Part shown: piece by piece, positions 24,121 through 32,489 of the stretch | How the letters are laid out: each line of letters opens with the position of its first letter | How positions within the stretch are numbered: the first letter of the stretch is position 1 | NCBI GenBank assembly: GCA_903899965.1 | Contig: CAIULB010000028.1 | Location: 1-64,000 of the forward strand | From: an uncultured Methylophilaceae bacterium | Lineage (GTDB): Bacteria > Pseudomonadota > Gammaproteobacteria > Burkholderiales > Methylophilaceae | Direction: 5' to 3' | Length of the DNA stretch: 64,000 nucleotides | Position numbers and translations under genes: made by a program | Notes under the pieces: model-generated | Database searches by the model: none | Told to the model about the DNA's origin: nothing | Seen by the model: only the letters and a program-made list of their open reading frames with translations

Positions 24121-24135
24121 GCGTTCTGATTATTG

Positions 24136-25473
24136 ATGAGTTTACGATTACGCCTTAATTTACTAATTACCGCCTTGTCGCTTGCATTTATGTTGGCGGC
24201 AGGGTGGGCTATCGTCAATGATGCTAAGGTTTCCATCAGAGAGCGCGTGGAAGCTGCTTCTCGCGTGACGGTACAACTGCTTGATAACGTTATTGTTACC
24301 TCTGTTATGAACCCAAGCTTGGGTGACACAACGGATGTTCTCAATGTCTTTCTGCGCTCCTTAGGATATGTCCGCAGTAGCCAAATAGCTTTGTATGATT
24401 ATCGTGGCAATGTTTTATATGAATCGCCAAAGTCGACCTATCGTAGTGATGTGCACCCGCCTCAATGGTTTGTGAAGATGGTTGAGCCTCAAAAAGAAAT
24501 TGTTCAGCGTAGGGTGCGTTTTGGTACTTTGGTTGTGACATCAAGTGCAGCCGGATCCATCCGTGAGGCATGGCGTGGAGTTGAGAAGTTGATGTGGATG
24601 GGTTTTGGCTTCTTTTTGTTGCTTAATGTTATGGTGTATGGCTTGTTAAGCCATTCGTTGAGACCTGTTCGTCATATTCTTGGTGCGATTAATCGGATGG
24701 AGCAGGGGGACTTAACGGTTCGCCTTGAACCTTTTAAACTTCCTGAGTTCGATACGATTGGGCACAGCTTAAATCGTATGGCAGAGTCTTTGGAAGCAGA
24801 GCGTCAACTTGAAGAAAATCGGCAATTGACGGCCTTAATTCAAACCCATATTGAAGATGAACGCAGAAGTTTGGCGCGTGAACTACATGATGAGCTGGGG
24901 CAATATGTCACAGCGATTAAAACTTTCGCGGTGGGGATTGCCAATAAAACGACTGAAAAGATGCCGGACGTTTCCTCTAACGCGCAAACTATTGTGGCGG
25001 CGGCTAACCATATTTATGATGGCATGCACGATATTATTCGTCATCTACGTCCAGGGGCGCTTGATAATTTGGGGCTTTCTGAGACGCTCAAAGATGCCGT
25101 GAATCACCTTCAAAAACAGCATCCTAAGATTGAGTTTGAGCTCGAATTGGCAGGCGCTCTCAATGATCTAGGTGAAAATCTTAATATTAATTTTTACCGG
25201 ATTGTGCAAGAGTCGCTTAATAACGCGGTTAAGCATGCAAAAGCGAGTAAGATTGCCGTCAGCTTGAAGCAAGATAAAGTTGGGAATTTGAACCTAACAA
25301 TACAAGACAACGGGCTAGGCATGGACGTCAATAACGTTGACCAATCTCAGCATTTTGGTTTGCTTGGTATGCGTGAACGCACACAAGCATTTCATGGTCA
25401 ATTTAATATTGAATCGTCGCCCAAAAAAGGCACGATCATTTCTATCTACATCCCCAAGGAGTCAATTGCATGA
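24136..25473 (+). CDS. Sensor histidine kinase, NarX/MoxY type
   Basis: 445 residues from the ATG at 24136 (a TTG one codon earlier is possible). Two membrane helices (about 8-26 and 152-172) flank a periplasmic domain resembling the LapD/MoxY N-terminal domain. A HAMP linker (about 173-225), a HisKA_3 dimerisation domain with phospho-acceptor His251 (ARELHDELGQ) and an HATPase domain (FYRIVQESLNNAVKHAKA, DNGLGMD, GLLGMRER) follow. In methylotrophs MoxY/MxaY-type kinases with this layout control methanol oxidation genes; whether this one does is inference. It overlaps the response regulator by 4 bases. Confidence 0.9.
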   Translation: MSLRLRLNLLITALSLAFMLAAGWAIVNDAKVSIRERVEAASRVTVQLLDNVIVTSVMNPSLGDTTDVLNVFLRSLGYVRSSQIALYDYRGNVLYESPKSTYRSDVHPPQWFVKMVEPQKEIVQRRVRFGTLVVTSSAAGSIREAWRGVEKLMWMGFGFFLLLNVMVYGLLSHSLRPVRHILGAINRMEQGDLTVRLEPFKLPEFDTIGHSLNRMAESLEAERQLEENRQLTALIQTHIEDERRSLARELHDELGQYVTAIKTFAVGIANKTTEKMPDVSSNAQTIVAAANHIYDGMHDIIRHLRPGALDNLGLSETLKDAVNHLQKQHPKIEFELELAGALNDLGENLNINFYRIVQESLNNAVKHAKASKIAVSLKQDKVGNLNLTIQDNGLGMDVNNVDQSQHFGLLGMRERTQAFHGQFNIESSPKKGTIISIYIPKESIA

Positions 25474-26111
25474 GCGCCCCCATTAATGTGTTGTTAGTGG
25501 ATGACCACGCGGTCGTTCGCAAGGGCTTTAAAATGCTTTTAGAGTCTGACGCTGATATCAAAGTAGTCGCGGAAGCAGATAGCGGTGAAAATGGCGTAAA
25601 AATGTATATGGAACATAAGCCTGATGTGGTGGTGATGGATATCACTATGCCAGGTATTGGCGGACTTGAAGCGACTGACCGTATTATGGCCAAAGACAGC
25701 TCAGCACGTATTCTTGTTCTTTCAGCGCATGAAGACTCTGTACACCCTAAACGCGTCCTAAATGCAGGAGCGATGGGTTATTTGACTAAACGTAGTGCTG
25801 CTGAAGAGTTGATTAAAGCGATTCGCACTGTGGCTGGTCGCAAAATGTATTTGGAGGCGAGCATCGCTCAGCAAATGGCGATACAGCAGTTAAACGGTGA
25901 AAAGAACCCGGTAGATGTGCTTTCAGACCGCGAATTCGAAGTGTTTATGGCGCTAGCCAAAGGCGAAACTACTAATCAAATTGCTGAGACCTTGAGTTTG
26001 TCGCCACGCACTGTGGGTACTCATCTGTACAATATCAAACAAAAGCTCAACGCGGGCAACTCAGCTGAAATCGCATTAATTGCGATGCGATCAGGATTGA
26101 TTGACCCTTAA
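25470..26111 (+). CDS. Response regulator, NarL/FixJ family (MoxX-like)
   Basis: 213 residues. The receiver domain has the acidic pocket LLVDDHA, phospho-acceptor Asp57 (VVVMDITMPGIGG) and the conserved Lys in MGYLTKRS. A LuxR-type helix-turn-helix fills about 150-207 (LSDREFEVFMALAKGETTNQ, then LSPRTVGTHLYNIKQKL). It is the partner of the kinase encoded immediately upstream (ATGA overlap). Target genes are not evident from the sequence. It is convergent with the EamA transporter and their stops overlap by four bases. Confidence 0.92.
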   Translation: MSAPINVLLVDDHAVVRKGFKMLLESDADIKVVAEADSGENGVKMYMEHKPDVVVMDITMPGIGGLEATDRIMAKDSSARILVLSAHEDSVHPKRVLNAGAMGYLTKRSAAEELIKAIRTVAGRKMYLEASIAQQMAIQQLNGEKNPVDVLSDREFEVFMALAKGETTNQIAETLSLSPRTVGTHLYNIKQKLNAGNSAEIALIAMRSGLIDP

Positions 26112-26974
26112 GTATTATTTTTAGCGCTTGCATTGGCGCTAACGCTCATTACCCCGCTGCTGATAATAATTGCAATGGCCAGCCAGCGGTCCATCGAAAG
26201 CATTTCCTTCCAAAGTAATATCCCAAATAAACTCGCTAGCACCACTGTGGTGTAAGCGAGGCTTCCAACAACCAATGGATTGCCTGTTCGGTAGGCGCGG
26301 GTCATGGCAAGCTGAGCAATGGTGGCACAAGTGCCGAGACCAGCAAGTATCGGTAAATCTTTCAATTCGATAGGGTTGAAGTGATGAATCAGCATCCATG
26401 CGCCACCCCCTAATGTGCAAACAAGTGAGAAATAAAAAACTGTTCGCCAATCAGGCTCTCCAGCACGTCCTAGCTGAGCGACATGCACATAAACCAAGCC
26501 TGCCAAAAGGCCAGAAAGCAAACCTAAGCCCCCTGCAAGAAGCTCTCCGTAATGAATGCTTGGCTTTAATAAAAAGGCTACGCCAACAAAACCTGTGGTG
26601 ATGGCTACAAGTAAAATCTTTTTGGGTTTTTCCTGAAGCGCAATCGTTAAAATTGCCGCCATGGCTAGTGGTGAGGTGTAGTTAAGCGTAATGGCGGTGG
26701 CAAGGGGTAGTTCGCTAATCGCATAAAAGAACATGACCATCGAGATAAAACCAATGATGGAGCGTGACATCTGTTTTTTGAAATGCGTTGTTTTGAGTGA
26801 TAGTCCATTGACGCTGACATAGCTAGAAATAAACACTAGGCCAATTAATGAGCGGTAAAAGACAAGTTCTGCGCTTGAGAATTTATGCGAGGCGATTTTA
26901 ACGAGTACGCCCATTACAGCGAAAAAGAATGCTGCGACCAACATCCATAAACTACCCCATTTAAATTGCTTCAC
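26108..26974 (-). CDS. EamA/RhaT-family (DMT) membrane transporter
   Basis: About 288 residues with ten predicted membrane helices in two EamA repeats; the first has ATAITLNYTSPLAMAAILTI and the second AQLAMTRAYRTGNPLVVGSLAYTTVVLASL. Members export metabolites or amino acids, or take up S-adenosylmethionine or nucleotide sugars; the substrate here cannot be told. I place the start at GTG 26974, overlapping the oxygenase stop (GTGA), although the frame is open to a TTG at 27004. The four-base overlap indicates translational coupling to the Rieske oxygenase gene. Confidence 0.88.
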   Translation of the reverse strand: MKQFKWGSLWMLVAAFFFAVMGVLVKIASHKFSSAELVFYRSLIGLVFISSYVSVNGLSLKTTHFKKQMSRSIIGFISMVMFFYAISELPLATAITLNYTSPLAMAAILTIALQEKPKKILLVAITTGFVGVAFLLKPSIHYGELLAGGLGLLSGLLAGLVYVHVAQLGRAGEPDWRTVFYFSLVCTLGGGAWMLIHHFNPIELKDLPILAGLGTCATIAQLAMTRAYRTGNPLVVGSLAYTTVVLASLFGILLWKEMLSMDRWLAIAIIISSGVMSVSANASAKNNT

Positions 26975-28092
26975 AGGTGCGGTTCTAGCTGCGTGCGCAG
27001 CCAATAATGAAAATGTTCCAAGCCTGTTTCCATTGGATGTTGATATGGTCCGCGCTCGTCGATGTTTTGGGCAAAAAGTGCTCGGCGACCATCATGCATG
27101 CGTTGGCAAATTTCCTTGTCCTCAACAGCAGTCTCTTCATAAGCGGCTTGTTGAGCAGCAACGTATTCACGCTCAAACAGGGCAATATCTTCGGGGTAGT
27201 AAAATTCAACCACGTTTGTGCAAGCATCTACGCCGCGAGGAATAATGTGTGAAACCACAAGCACGTTTGGATACCATTCAATCATGAGGAATGGGTAATA
27301 TACCATCCAAATAGCGCCGTGCTTGGGCAAGCCCTTTTTGCCTTGATATTGTTTAACCTGAGACTGCCAGTTTTTGTAGATATCTGAGCCGGCTTTTTCG
27401 TAGCTAGGTTTGTAGCCAACGGTTTGCACACTGTAATCTTTGCCAAACTCCCAATGAAGCACATCACAATCTACAAAGCGGTCTAAGCCCGGATGGAATG
27501 GGCCTACGTGATAGTCTTCCAAGTAAACCTCAATGAAAGTTTTCCAATTGAAGTAGTATTCGTCTACCGTGACGCGATCTAGCATGTAGTTTGTGAAGTC
27601 GAAATCTTGCTTGCAGCCAAGTGCTGCTAAGTCTTCCGCGATATTGCGTTTGCCATTAAACAGCAAACCCTGCCAGTTGGTGAGTGGGGTGTGGTCTAAG
27701 TGTAGACAAGGGTTTTCATCAAAGTGCGGCGCACCTAAAAGCTCGCCTTTGAGGTTGTAAGTCCAGCGATGAAGCGGGCAAACGATATTTTTGGTATTGC
27801 CTTGACCGTTCAACATCAGTGCTTGGCGATGGCGGCAAACATTGCTGATTAAGCTAATGCCCTGTTGGTTGTGCACTAAGGCTTTGCCGTCTTTCATCCA
27901 GCCCAATGTGAAAAAATCACCTTGATTTGGCACCATGAGCTCGTGTCCAAAATACTGTGGCGCTTTGGAAAATAAGTGTTTTTCTTCGACCGCATAAATG
28001 GCGGGGTCAGCATACCAGGCCACAGCTAGCTGTGCTGTTGCCTGCGCTGTAGCATTGCTTTTTGTATTGTTGCTTGATGCGAGAGAAATCAT
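26971..28092 (-). CDS. Rieske non-haem iron oxygenase, alpha-subunit type
   Basis: About 373 residues from ATG 28092 (a TTG at 28143 would add 17 residues). The Rieske cluster ligands are Cys86/His88 (NVCRHRQAL) and Cys105/His108 (IVCPLHRWTYN). The catalytic iron site has His195 and His200 in EDYHVGPFHPGL, so both redox centres are intact. The sequence resembles the single-component group that includes choline/carnitine/stachydrine-type and phenylpropionate-type oxygenases; the substrate is unknown. No reductase or ferredoxin gene is adjacent. It is coupled to an EamA transporter, which may move the substrate or product. Confidence 0.87.
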   Translation of the reverse strand: MISLASSNNTKSNATAQATAQLAVAWYADPAIYAVEEKHLFSKAPQYFGHELMVPNQGDFFTLGWMKDGKALVHNQQGISLISNVCRHRQALMLNGQGNTKNIVCPLHRWTYNLKGELLGAPHFDENPCLHLDHTPLTNWQGLLFNGKRNIAEDLAALGCKQDFDFTNYMLDRVTVDEYYFNWKTFIEVYLEDYHVGPFHPGLDRFVDCDVLHWEFGKDYSVQTVGYKPSYEKAGSDIYKNWQSQVKQYQGKKGLPKHGAIWMVYYPFLMIEWYPNVLVVSHIIPRGVDACTNVVEFYYPEDIALFEREYVAAQQAAYEETAVEDKEICQRMHDGRRALFAQNIDERGPYQHPMETGLEHFHYWLRTQLEPHL

Positions 28093-28393
28093 GGTACTTA
28101 GTGCTGTTCCGCTAAATATTGTTTTGCAAAATTTAAGCGACAAAGGGCTTGTTTTAATGCGCTTAATTATTTTGAGGTGTGGGATTTTGCACTAACCCCA
28201 TTTTTTTTCAAGTTTTTTCCAGAGGGCTTGCATTTGATTTGATGTAAGTCAGATGAAATTAGAATAAGTTTCAGCCACTTAAATGAAGAATAATCAGCCT
28301 CATAAAGGCCTCGATTCTTGCCTAAAAGCCCGTTTTGAGATAATCTCGATACCTTAGATGTAAAACAATTTCTTAAGCTCAAGGAGCAGGTGA

Positions 28394-28498
28394 ATGAAAA
28401 ATCCACTAGATTCAATTTTAGGTACGATCATTTCAGGCTTGATTCTGACGTTTGTGTTGTATTCATTTGTGAAACATTTCGTATTGGCGGGGGTATAA
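28394..28498 (+). CDS. Small one-helix membrane protein (34 residues), unknown
   Basis: A short open frame from ATG 28394 to TAA 28496-28498. A strong AAGGAG site (28381-28386) stands 7 bases before the ATG. The peptide begins MKNPLDSILGTIISG and has one hydrophobic helix (about residues 8-32) and no charged core residues; Lys25-His26 and a further aromatic side lie near its end. It is three bases ahead of the PuuD-like gene, so the two are one translational unit. Size and position recall small subunits such as CydX or CcoQ, but no family was recognised. Confidence 0.72.
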   Translation: MKNPLDSILGTIISGLILTFVLYSFVKHFVLAGV

Positions 28499-28501
28499 AT
28501 C

Positions 28502-28993
28502 ATGGAATATTCAATGGGTATTTTCCGCTGGTTACACATCATGGCGGGCATCACTTGGATTGGCTTGCTTTACTATTTTAACTTGGTACAAGTGCCAGCA
28601 ATGAAAGACGCAGCTGCTGACGGTACTGCTGCGGGAATTTCTAAACACGTTGCTCCTCGTGCTTTGCTTTGGTTCCGCTGGGCGGCTGTTGCAACATGGC
28701 TGATGGGTGCGGCTTTGTTAGGCCCTAACTTTAGTGCTGCATTTGGTTTGCAAGCTGGCTACACTGGCATTGGTATTGGTGCTTGGTTAGGTAGCATTAT
28801 GTTATTCAATGTTTGGGTGCTGATTTGGCCTAATCAACAAAAGATTTTGGGCATGGTTTCTGCTACTGATGATGAAAAAGGCAAAGCACGTCGCGTGGCA
28901 TTTTTAGCATCACGTACCAACATGATGCTTTCAGTGCCTATGTTGTTCTTTATGGCAAACGGTCTGACACATAAGGCGCTTGTTGGTCTGTAA
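28502..28993 (+). CDS. PuuD-like membrane protein (urate oxidase N-terminal/DUF989 type)
   Basis: 163 residues with four to five membrane helices. The N-terminus FRWLHIMAGITWIGLLYYFNL matches the start of the urate hydroxylase PuuD membrane domain, with a His in the first helix. Further conserved features are ALLWFRWAAVATWLMG and a Trp/Asn-rich GSIMLFNVWVLIWPNQQKI. PuuD itself has a C-terminal cytochrome c domain that is missing here, so this is the membrane part alone. The function is unproven; haem or quinone binding is possible. It follows the 34-residue protein and ends at a strong terminator. Confidence 0.8.
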   Translation: MEYSMGIFRWLHIMAGITWIGLLYYFNLVQVPAMKDAAADGTAAGISKHVAPRALLWFRWAAVATWLMGAALLGPNFSAAFGLQAGYTGIGIGAWLGSIMLFNVWVLIWPNQQKILGMVSATDDEKGKARRVAFLASRTNMMLSVPMLFFMANGLTHKALVGL

Positions 28994-29015
28994 GATTTTT
29001 AGTTAAGCTGGAATT

Positions 29016-29036
29016 GGCGGCTTAAGCCGCCTTTTT
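29016..29036 (+). terminator. Rho-independent terminator
   Basis: GGCGGC (29016-29021), loop TTAA, GCCGCC (29026-29031), then T5. It separates the PuuD-like unit from argD. Confidence 0.93.
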
Positions 29037-29046
29037 CATTTTTATA

Positions 29047-29065
29047 TGGCAACAGATGGTTGCCA
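29047..29065 (+). promoter_or_regulatory. Hairpin or operator upstream of argD
   Basis: TGGCAAC (29047-29053), loop AGATG, GTTGCCA (29059-29065). It is 31 bases before the argD ATG and just after the terminator. No convincing promoter was seen between the terminator and argD, so this may be a leader hairpin or operator. Confidence 0.4.
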
Positions 29066-29096
29066 ATTTCATTTTGTAAGTATTGAGTAAAGTGAT

Positions 29097-30278
29097 ATGT
29101 CACAACATTTGATGAACACCTATGCACGTCAGCCAGTTAGCTTTGTTAAAGGTGAAGGCGTTTGGCTATTTGATGCAGAGGGTAATCGCTATTTAGATGC
29201 GCTCGCTGGTGTTGCTGTCAATGGCCTCGGCCATGGACATCCTAAGCTTGTTAAAGCGATTAGTGATCAAGCGACTAAGCTGATCCATGTTTCTAATGTT
29301 TATAACATCAACGAACAAGAGCGTCTTGCCGACAAGCTTTGTGAAGTTTCTGGTATGGACAAGGTATTCTTTTGTAACTCTGGTTGTGAGGCAAACGAGG
29401 CTTCAATCAAATTGGCTAGACTTTACGGTCACAACAAGGGTATTAAAAATCCTGAAATCATCGTCATGGAAAAAGCATTCCATGGACGTACATTGGCAAC
29501 ACTTTCAGCAACCGGTAACCGCAAAACGCAAGCTGGATTTGAGCCATTGGTGAGTGGTTTTGTTCGTGTGCCATTTGATGATGTGGAAGCTGTACGTCAA
29601 GTTGCATCGCATAATAAAAATGTCGTGGCGATTTTGGTTGAGCCAGTTCAGGGCGAGGGCGGGATTAATATTCCGCATGACGCTGCTGGCTATTTAGAAC
29701 AACTGCGTAAGATTTGTGACGACAACGGCTGGTTGTTAATGCTGGATGAAGTGCAAACAGGGATTGGCCGCACAGGCACTTGGTTTGCGTTCCAACATAC
29801 CAATATTGTGCCTGACGTGATGTCCTTGGCTAAGGGCTTGGGTTCTGGTGTGCCGATTGGCGCTTGCGTGGCTAAAGGTGTTGCCGCTGAAACATTCACC
29901 TATGGCAAACATGGCTCTACTTTTGGTGGGAATCCCTTAGCCACTGCCGCAGGTTTTGCCACACTGCAAATTATCGAAGAAGAAAACTTACGTGCTCATG
30001 CCCAAGTGATGGGTGATCTCATTTGCAACGGCTTGCGTACTGCGCTTAAAGATGTCGCTGGCGTGAATATCATTCGTAATGCTGGTTTGATGATCGGTGT
30101 AGAACTCAATCGTCCATGTGGAGACTTGGTTAAACGTGCGCTGACTGAAAAACTTCTCATAAACGTGACTGCAGATAACGTGGTGCGTTTATTGCCGCCG
30201 CTTGTGATTAATCAAAGTGAATCTGAGCAGTTGGCGGCAATCTTAGCAAAATTAATTAAGCAATTTTTGAGTGAATAA
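29097..30278 (+). CDS. argD: Acetylornithine aminotransferase
   Basis: 393 residues of class III PLP aminotransferases. The PLP lysine is in MSLAKGLGSGVPIGACV, the PLP-phosphate loop in FFCNSGCEANEASIKLARL, and the Asp that pairs with the pyridine nitrogen in LMLDEVQTGIGRTG. It makes N-acetylornithine in arginine synthesis and may also act on succinyl-diaminopimelate. It begins an arginine run with argF and argG; the gap to argF is about 46 bases with no terminator. Confidence 0.94.
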   Translation: MSQHLMNTYARQPVSFVKGEGVWLFDAEGNRYLDALAGVAVNGLGHGHPKLVKAISDQATKLIHVSNVYNINEQERLADKLCEVSGMDKVFFCNSGCEANEASIKLARLYGHNKGIKNPEIIVMEKAFHGRTLATLSATGNRKTQAGFEPLVSGFVRVPFDDVEAVRQVASHNKNVVAILVEPVQGEGGINIPHDAAGYLEQLRKICDDNGWLLMLDEVQTGIGRTGTWFAFQHTNIVPDVMSLAKGLGSGVPIGACVAKGVAAETFTYGKHGSTFGGNPLATAAGFATLQIIEEENLRAHAQVMGDLICNGLRTALKDVAGVNIIRNAGLMIGVELNRPCGDLVKRALTEKLLINVTADNVVRLLPPLVINQSESEQLAAILAKLIKQFLSE

Positions 30279-30324
30279 TATTTTTAAATTAATGGTTTAA
30301 ACGTCCAATTTTTTGGTCAACATC

Positions 30325-31242
30325 ATGACAATCAAACACTTTTTACAATTTAACGACTTAAATCTCGACGAGCTTAATCATATTTTTGAGCGGACTCGCT
30401 GGATTAAAGCCCAATTTAAAGCTTATCAACAATATTGGCCGCTGTCAGACCGTACATTGGTCATGATATTTGAGAAGGCGAGTACCCGTACTCGTTTATC
30501 TTTTGAAGCGGGCATGCAGCAATTGGGCGGCTCAGCGATTTATTTGAACACGCGTGATTCGCAATTGGGTCGCGGAGAGCCTGTGGAAGATGCAGCGCAA
30601 GTCATCTCTCGTATGAGCGACATTGTGATGATTCGTACCTTTGAACAGGACATTATTGAGCGCTTTGCGGCTAATTCACGTGTGCCAGTAATAAACGGCT
30701 TAACCAATGAGTATCACCCTTGCCAAATATTGGCGGATATTTTTACATTTATTGAACACCGAGGTCCAATCAAAGGAAAAACTGTTGCTTGGATAGGTGA
30801 TTCTAACAATGTTTGTAATACATGGTTGCAAGCGGCCGAAGTGCTCGATTTTAATGTGCACGTTTCTACGCCACCGGGCTACGAAGTTGAGCCGGAACGC
30901 GCTAATTTATATGGCGATAGCCATTACGAAGAGTTTGCCGATCCAATGGAAGCTGCACGAGGTGCGGACTTGGTGACGACAGATGTTTGGACTTCAATGG
31001 GATTTGAGGCTGAAAACGAAGAACGCATGCGTGACTTTGCTGATTGGCAGGTTGATGCAGACATGATGCGCGTGGCGAAAGAGGATGCTTTGTTCATGCA
31101 TTGCTTACCAGCGCATCGAGGTGAGGAAGTTTCTGCTGAGGTGATAGATGGCAAACACTCAGTCGTTTGGGATGAGGCTGAAAATAGATTGCATGTTCAA
31201 AAGGCGCTCATGGAGTACCTTTTGTTAGGGAAAGTTAAGTAA
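30325..31242 (+). CDS. argF: Ornithine carbamoyltransferase
   Basis: 305 residues from ATG 30325; an in-frame TTG at 30313 adds four residues and is less likely. The carbamoyl-phosphate loop STRTR is at 53-57, HPCQ at 131-134, and the ornithine/catalytic loop HCLPAHRG near residue 263. It forms citrulline from ornithine and carbamoyl phosphate. It lies between argD and argG, the next arginine steps; the short [12 protein letters not shown] start is typical of this enzyme. No strong ribosome binding site is visible before either start. Confidence 0.96.
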
Positions 31243-31265: not shown

Positions 31266-32489
31266 ATGGGCGATATTAAAAAAGTAGTGTTGGCGTATTC
31301 AGGTGGTCTTGATACTTCAGTGATCTTGAAATGGCTTCAAGATGAATACAAATGTGAAGTGGTGACATTTACTGCCGACTTAGGTCAGGGTGAAGAGTTG
31401 GAGCCAGCACGCGCTAAAGCAAAAGCTGCCGGCGTTAAAGAGATTTACATTGATGATGTGCGTGAAGAGTTTGTGCGCGATTTTGTATTCCCAATGTTCC
31501 GTGCCAATACCGTTTATGAAGGCGAATACTTGCTTGGCACTTCAATCGCACGCCCATTGATTGCTAAGCGCCTTATTGAAATTGCGAATGAGACAGGTGC
31601 AGATGCTATCTCTCACGGCGCAACAGGCAAGGGTAATGACCAAGTGCGTTTTGAGCTCGGCGCTTACGCATTAAAACCTAATATTCACATTATTGCCCCA
31701 TGGCGTGAGTGGGATTTACTTTCACGTGAGAAGCTTTTGGCTTATGCAGAAAAGCATGGTATTCCAGTTGAGATGAAGCATAAACAAGGTGGTAGTCCAT
31801 ACAGCATGGATGCTAACTTGCTGCACATATCTTACGAGGGTCGTCATTTAGAAAATCCAGCTGCAGAAGCTGAAGAAGATATGTGGCGCTGGACAGTATC
31901 TCCAGAAAAAGCGCCCGATGCGGCTGAATACATTGATATTGAATATTTAAACGGCGACCCAGTTGCACTTGATGGCAAAAAAATGAAAGCCCATGAAATC
32001 TTGGCGTATTTGAATAAGGTTGGTGGTAAACATGGCATTGGTCGTTTGGATTTGGTAGAAAATCGTTATGTGGGCATGAAGTCTCGCGGTTGCTACGAAA
32101 CACCAGGTGGCACAATTTTGCTTAAAGCGCATCGTGCAATTGAATCCATCACATTAGACCGCGAAGTGGCGCATTTAAAAGACGACTTGATGCCACGTTA
32201 TGCCAGCATGATTTATAACGGCTATTGGTGGAGCCCAGAGCGTTTGGCGCTTCAAAGCTTAATTGACCACACACAAAAAACTGTCAATGGTTGGGTACGA
32301 TTGAAACTTTATAAAGGCAATGTGATTGTCGCTGGTCGTGACTCTAAAACGGATTCATTGTTTGATCCAAATATTGCAACCTTTGAAGATGATAAAGGCG
32401 CTTATGACCAAAAAGATGCGGCTGGTTTTATCAAGCTTAATGCGTTGAGATTGCGTATTGCGGCAAATTTAAAACAGAAAAAACACTAA
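31266..32489 (+). CDS. argG: Argininosuccinate synthase
   Basis: 407 residues. The ATP-binding PP-loop is [16 protein letters not shown] (residues 9-24). Other family blocks are [11 protein letters not shown] and [16 protein letters not shown]. It joins citrulline and aspartate using ATP. It is the third gene of the arg run, 23 bases after argF, with GGGAAAGAAG as ribosome binding site. argH is not in the window. Confidence 0.97.

Follow-up and report, generated by a model that had tools for sequence, protein, structure and literature searches.

A one-helix protein encoded beside a short DUF989 membrane protein in Methylophilaceae, and its separate and fused forms among relatives

Genes and signals at the locus

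The window (the whole stretch of DNA analyzed, 64,000 nucleotides of contig CAIULB010000028.1 in GenBank assembly GCA_903899965.1, from an uncultured Methylophilaceae bacterium) contains two short adjacent reading frames. An earlier note on this DNA had described an AAGGAG site, a 34-codon frame with a single hydrophobic helix, three bases and a 163-residue ORF, and all of these were confirmed in the sequence. It missed argD, argF and argG downstream, as well as a paralogous pair linked to pqqD and pqqE in other genomes. The features are as follows.

26971 to 28143, minus strand: alpha subunit of a Rieske oxygenase, divergent, the upstream neighbor in many Methylophilaceae
28381 to 28386, plus strand: Shine-Dalgarno-like AAGGAG of the small ORF, 7 nt before the ATG at 28394 (from the sequence; the same AAGGAGCA occurs in 7 congeners)
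28394 to 28498, plus strand: small ORF of 34 codons, MKNPLDSILGTIISGLILTFVLYSFVKHFVLAGV, including the stop codon TAA at 28496 to 28498; a one-helix protein, read as a detached N-terminal helix (from the ORF reading, homologues and coding constraint)
28486 to 28493, plus strand: GGCGGGGG, candidate ribosome-binding site of the larger ORF, within the last codons of the small ORF (proposed from the sequence)
28502 to 28993, plus strand: 163-residue short DUF989 (Urate_ox_N) membrane protein (PF06181, 67.9 bits against a cut-off of 26.9; homologues)
29016 to 29031, plus strand: intrinsic-terminator-like hairpin (6 bp, all GC) with a T run, between the pair and argD (from the sequence; kept in relatives)
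29097 to 30278, plus strand: argD-like aminotransferase class III, the conserved next gene (ORF list, Pfam on homologues, relatives' loci)
30313 to 31242, plus strand: argF, ornithine carbamoyltransferase; TTG is the earliest start listed, and a later ATG is probably the true one
31266 to 32489, plus strand: argG, argininosuccinate synthase

In the window the spacer between the stop codon of the small ORF and the larger ORF is 3 nt. The Rieske alpha subunit falls far short of the cut-offs that define the named NCBIfam families, and its gene stays beside argD in several genomes that are without the pair. Positions 24133 to 26111 encode a sensor kinase whose N-terminal domain is of the LapD/MoxY type, next to a response-regulator-like ORF, and we take the two to resemble the regulator pair of methanol oxidation; a LuxR-type response regulator was seen near 13 of the 81 compared loci. 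An Rfam search of 28100 to 29300 returned no RNA element at E up to 1.

The larger protein and its relationship to PuuD

PF06181 (Urate_ox_N, formerly DUF989) matched the 163-residue protein in three stretches of a partial profile. The earlier note had claimed a match between the first helix and the membrane domain of the urate hydroxylase PuuD (COG3748; PF06181 plus cytochrome c). A match was indeed found, but it is not confined to the first helix, since all four helices match PuuD by Pfam and by hhalign. An hhalign comparison of 46 family members with two long homologues gave an E value of 1.4e-15 over helices I, II, V and VI. The similarity includes the RWxHxxxGxxWIG motif, a His where helix I begins and another where helix VI ends, aligned to within one residue.

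The claim that the protein is truncated relative to PuuD also held. It has four core helices rather than eight, lacking helices III, IV, VII and VIII, and contains neither a cytochrome c domain nor a CXXCH motif; the HGGGFY loop seen in two long homologues is absent from the short form. Short DUF989 proteins without the cytochrome, with four helices corresponding to PuuD I, II, V and VI and a gene context unlike that of puuD, were already noted in 2015 (Doniselli et al., PMC4562309). By these profile matches the larger protein belongs with the short DUF989 proteins already known, and what appears to be new is the separately encoded helix; the Discussion of that paper counts four transmembrane helices, and a fifth, separately encoded one is not mentioned there.

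Residues found invariant in two comparisons of the family include H12, W19, N27, Q30, R59, N103, W105, W109, P110, R138 and N140 (window numbering). Conserved His ligands, which the earlier note had proposed to look for, would have to be H12 and a second His in the C-terminal tail, which is present in 101 of 107 sequences (99 of 105 with a search motif, plus L069 and L102 by eye). It is missing in L026, L027, L029, L030, L085 and L101, which weakens the case for a universal bis-His heme. In an antiparallel bundle the tail His would be found at the same side as H12, and because PuuD carries a His at or next to both places, a site for one heme or a quinone is possible.

No solved relative was found by sequence at E up to 1, and Foldseek returned nothing with E below 1 (best E 1.3, NarI). 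The best VIA-align rows were designed bundles, cytochrome b6 (Z 11.9), NOX5 and a designed di-heme protein, with Z values of 10 to 12.5; these lie within the helical-bundle background and thus indicate only a generic four-helix-bundle likeness, and that other folds are missing from the list carries no weight. L089 was left out of the structure alignment because of a masked base that gave an X.

The protoporphyrinogen oxidase HemJ (UPF0093) was considered as an identity for the larger protein and rejected: there is a weak likeness in the first helix (Pfam E 0.016), no NCBIfam hit was obtained, the UPF0093 score of 16 bits falls below the cut-off of 34.2, and the hhalign probability is 0.4%. A role as a HemJ substitute was also rejected: among 61 relatives of the window searched as whole genomes, 58 have a HemJ match, and HemY gave no match over its cut-off in any of the 61. 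The same reasoning disposed of a PyrD substitute, a candidate prompted by the carbamoyl-phosphate neighbors, as pyrD was matched in 59 of the 61. Oxidation of protoporphyrinogen or dihydroorotate is accordingly disfavored, as is oxidation of urate on the grounds given below.

The one-helix protein and its tie to the larger gene

The pattern of synonymous and nonsynonymous variation, which the earlier note had named as a check, supports the small ORF. Across 7 congeners pN/pS was 0.154 in frame, whereas the shifted frames gave 0.83 and 4.17; variation was seen at 16 of 30 third codon positions and at only 1 of 30 second positions. The same contrast was obtained over 62 sequences (0.30 in frame versus 0.86 and 2.47). 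Judged by this substitution pattern, the small ORF is a genuine protein under coding constraint. The peptide consensus MKNPLDSxxGTxxSGxxLT stands ahead of the larger gene in 27 of 30 fetched loci, the remaining three having an in-frame fusion of the helix instead; the NPLxS, GT and G residues are kept over great distance. The 34-mer has no Pfam match and no NCBIfam model over its cut-off, and 23 homologous peptides gave Pfam and NCBIfam matches at chance level only. The type I toxin Fst was rejected as its identity, because NF033608 scored 15.6 bits against a cut-off of 26 over a 14-residue hydrophobic match.

A scan of a genome collection yielded 80 named loci from at least 584 relatives; some loci of the set L031 to L110 duplicate relatives within L001 to L030. 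With a helix profile built from 11 peptides, none of the initial 110 loci proved to be without the helix, which is a separate ORF before the larger gene in 84 and fused in frame to its N terminus in 26. Methylophilus methylotrophus (L042) carries the pair in its split form. Separate-ORF helices scored 29.7 to 69.6 bits, and the best off-target score among 39,079 six-frame segments was 9.7 bits. Three fused cases (L029, L030 and L081, at 8.9, 7.7 and 2.6 bits) do not exceed that maximum and were counted as fused by position and hydrophobicity.

Whole genomes gave the same picture. The larger gene was present in 33 of the 61 relatives (E up to 0.001), one of which, G048, has the long PuuD-type protein only, and was without a match in the remaining 28; it is therefore dispensable. 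The separate helix was found at 29 places in 27 genomes, every one directly before a PuuD-like gene (in two cases a paralogue). A search with the peptide alignment found it in none of the 28 genomes without the larger gene, and the separate peptide was absent from the five fused-gene genomes (G037, G038, G046, G051 and G054). Upstream of argD in 19 genomes without the larger gene there was no helix (best score 3.1 bits) while the Rieske gene often remains, so that both parts are missing together. The small ORF is thus upheld as a one-helix protein that is conserved and goes with the PuuD-like gene.

How the two reading frames relate to each other was compared over 81 unique split loci. The larger ORF lies in the frame of the peptide in 30 of them, the window being one; the alternative frames account for 21 and 30 loci. 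The gap between the ORFs ranges from -4 to 165 nt with a median of 10; start codons of the larger gene were picked mechanically, and those of L015, L027, L033 and L057 lie too far downstream, so that the gap is overstated for all of these but L033. A random frame relation of this kind implies that two chains are made and that neither readthrough nor a fixed frameshift is the rule.

These data bear on two simpler accounts of the small ORF. In one, it would be a leader that couples translation to the larger gene, its peptide being irrelevant. Gaps of 10 nt or less in 44 of the 81 split loci would suit this, as would a purine-rich stretch within the last codons of the small ORF; pS in the small ORF is also about half that of the larger gene (0.295 versus 0.581), hinting at an additional RNA-level constraint on 28394 to 28498. 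The amino acid constraint, the distant conservation of NPLxS, GT and G, and the fused versions speak against it, and coupling is hard to envisage where gaps reach 50 to 165 nt, so that we consider this account very unlikely. Still more improbable is that the split is only apparent and a single polypeptide arises by stop codon readthrough or frameshifting: the window and 29 other unique split loci do share one frame, but 51 of the 81 do not, and gaps and stops vary.

The fused relatives, together with a helix that never stands alone in 61 genomes, strongly suggest a two-chain membrane complex. That much of the earlier note's two-subunit heme or quinone complex stands, on fusions and co-occurrence; its heme or quinone part stays a proposal. 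We consider it highly probable, from these comparisons, that the 34-mer and the 163-residue chain are one protein in two pieces, assembled as a complex. The 34-mer would be the first transmembrane helix (helix 0) of a membrane protein with five helices, encoded here by a split gene, and this small chain would assemble with the four helices of the 163-residue chain, which form the PuuD core I, II, V and VI; in other Proteobacteria the same helix is joined to the same protein through a short loop. Contact is likely to be made through the conserved GTxxSG face of helix 0, a small-xxx-small pattern. Helix 0 would run with its N terminus inside and its C terminus outside, where the fused relatives carry the linker, and the core would have both termini outside, as proposed for PuuD. 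An AlphaFold2 model of the fused homologue L047 (203 residues, 46 sequences; pLDDT 88.6, pTM 0.81) predicts a helix at 8 to 26, a weaker linker and then a core of four long helices.

A maximum likelihood tree was built from 107 core sequences, leaving out the helix and the identical rows L032, L033 and L046. It requires 7 changes between split and fused states, compared with a mean of 23.4 after shuffling. At least 3 changes are forced by well-supported branches, and the count gives no direction. The fused Methylophilaceae L047 and L048 nest inside split ones. This tree suggests that the first helix has switched repeatedly, about 7 times, between a separate and a joined state.

CydX and CcoQ are one-helix subunits of heme membrane enzymes, roughly 30 to 40 residues long and encoded beside the large subunit. 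The small ORF resembles them in always lying beside its large partner at the 29 places in the 61 genomes. It differs in that the helix can be swapped, in other genomes, for a fused N-terminal helix, and in that no family model matches it beyond chance. Compared with PuuD, the larger protein comes with an extra N-terminal helix, separate or fused, and has arginine or PQQ genes as neighbors in place of purine genes.

Gene neighborhoods and a tentative role

Among 101 unique loci with at least 1 kb of downstream sequence, argD is the next gene in 68 (59 of 77 split and 9 of 24 fused). In a further 3 loci argF is next, and in 4 argG lies divergently within 700 nt upstream. These counts are from tblastn; a general survey of neighbors by longest ORF includes antisense ORFs. 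Loci without arginine linkage include L025 to L030 and L052 to L056. A hydantoinase-B-like gene is divergent upstream of the pair in 9 loci (L072, L086, L088, L091, L093, L103, L105, L109 and L110), and an asparagine-synthase-like gene (family assigned by eye) is upstream in 10, some of them shared with the hydantoinase-B-like set.

A class-wide draw of 229 evenly drawn genomes, queried with the paralogue described below, gave 84 matches at E up to 0.001, the weakest being long PuuD-like proteins. The 30 loci kept were the best matches, with L155 (the window itself) left out and species overlap with the named set probable, since identical peptides recur. Among the 26 that are not linked to pqq genes, 18 are split and 7 are fused, while L145 lacks a helix match. 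In 21 of the 26 argD follows directly; it is divergently adjacent in L154, and was not found within the flank in L140, L145, L148 and L153.

The earlier note had also claimed a strong terminator behind the pair. A hairpin with a T run is present, but a generic terminator scan found 5 sites against 3.5 expected, so the window hairpin alone means little. The relatives support it better. Of 63 arg-adjacent loci, 53 have a hairpin and T run in the 220 nt downstream of the gene, versus 0.9% of shuffles (a hand-made list covering part of the arg-adjacent loci, and a fixed distance, which in some loci reaches into argD). The hairpin is GC rich (GGCGGC...GCCGCC), and its position is kept across Methylophilaceae and Thiobacillus; some gammaproteobacteria have a different hairpin nearer argD, which might be an argD leader. 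From this conservation the pair is probably its own transcription unit. A conserved terminator before argD weakens the argument for an operon, and the arginine linkage may be positional only, although the genes remain neighbors across relatives.

In G020 (L128) and G027 (L127) we found a paralogue of the larger protein, 39 to 41% identical, with its own separate one-helix ORF. In L127 it is preceded by genes that pass the cut-offs for PqqD (89.5 bits against 46) and PqqE (494 bits against 381), and serC-like and pyrD-like genes lie behind the paralogous pair; L128 has the same order by sequence. Its closest class-wide relatives, L131, L132 and L133 (57 to 62% identity), again have PqqD and PqqE directly upstream, so that the paralogous pair stands behind pqqD-pqqE at all 5 of 5 loci.

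Three other roles for the pair were weighed. The first, which is compatible with a protein in two pieces, is a function in arginine biosynthesis as a membrane partner, sensor or oxidase for ArgD or ArgF. The linkage to arginine genes in both locus sets, which spans split and fused forms and altered gene orders, argues for it. A terminator intervenes in most of the arg-adjacent loci, however, many loci are unlinked, and argD persists in 19 genomes without the pair. We know of no arginine step that requires such a protein, and we regard this function as unlikely. The second is transport or export in place of redox chemistry, the paralogue perhaps moving PQQ. PQQ is used in the periplasm, and a small hydrophobic bundle encoded behind pqqD-pqqE would fit such an activity. 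The invariant His, Arg, Asn and Trp look more like a binding or catalytic site, and the relative of known role, PuuD, is a redox enzyme (PMC4562309); we consider transport quite improbable. The last, urate hydroxylation or another step of purine breakdown, draws on the homology to PuuD helices I, II, V and VI and is extremely improbable for a protein that has neither the cytochrome c, the remaining four helices nor the HGGGFY loop, in genomes of which G000 and 24 of 27 with the separate helix have no UraH (TIGR02962). The absence of purine genes nearby, as claimed in the earlier note, fits with the lack of UraH from the whole genome of the window (G000).

We favor, tentatively, a small PuuD-related redox protein in which His12 and the C-terminal His hold a heme b or a quinone between them, at the outer face of the membrane; such a redox role is possible rather than probable. 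The protein would oxidize a metabolite in the cytoplasm or signal about it. One subfamily would be tied to arginine biosynthesis, its paralogous counterpart to PQQ biosynthesis, though we regard each specific pathway or substrate as unlikely at best. The fuller picture would be a new class of two-chain membrane oxidoreductase, with one branch serving an unrecognized step or control in arginine biosynthesis, another serving PQQ biosynthesis or export, and a helix repeatedly split and fused; we think this doubtful as a whole.

The separate helix, the switching between split and fused forms, the argD linkage with its terminator and the pqq branch were not found in the literature searched, a scope that excludes Supplementary Fig. 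S13 (gene context) of PMC4562309. The openings of the urate hydroxylase abstracts listed contained nothing on the short form, and the titles and abstract openings that name PuuD together with argD refer to an unrelated putrescine gene of that name.

These observations add a broadly conserved small protein family that is without a Pfam or NCBIfam model, and whose partner is argued from sequence only. They describe a membrane protein that has repeatedly been split or joined at the first helix, and the argD and pqqE neighborhoods offer two genetic handles on a family of at least 584 relatives. If the proposal is correct, short DUF989 complexes would be widespread in Gammaproteobacteria in the broad sense, and a helix that moves between a protein of roughly 31 residues and an N-terminal domain would be a natural experiment in membrane-protein splitting.
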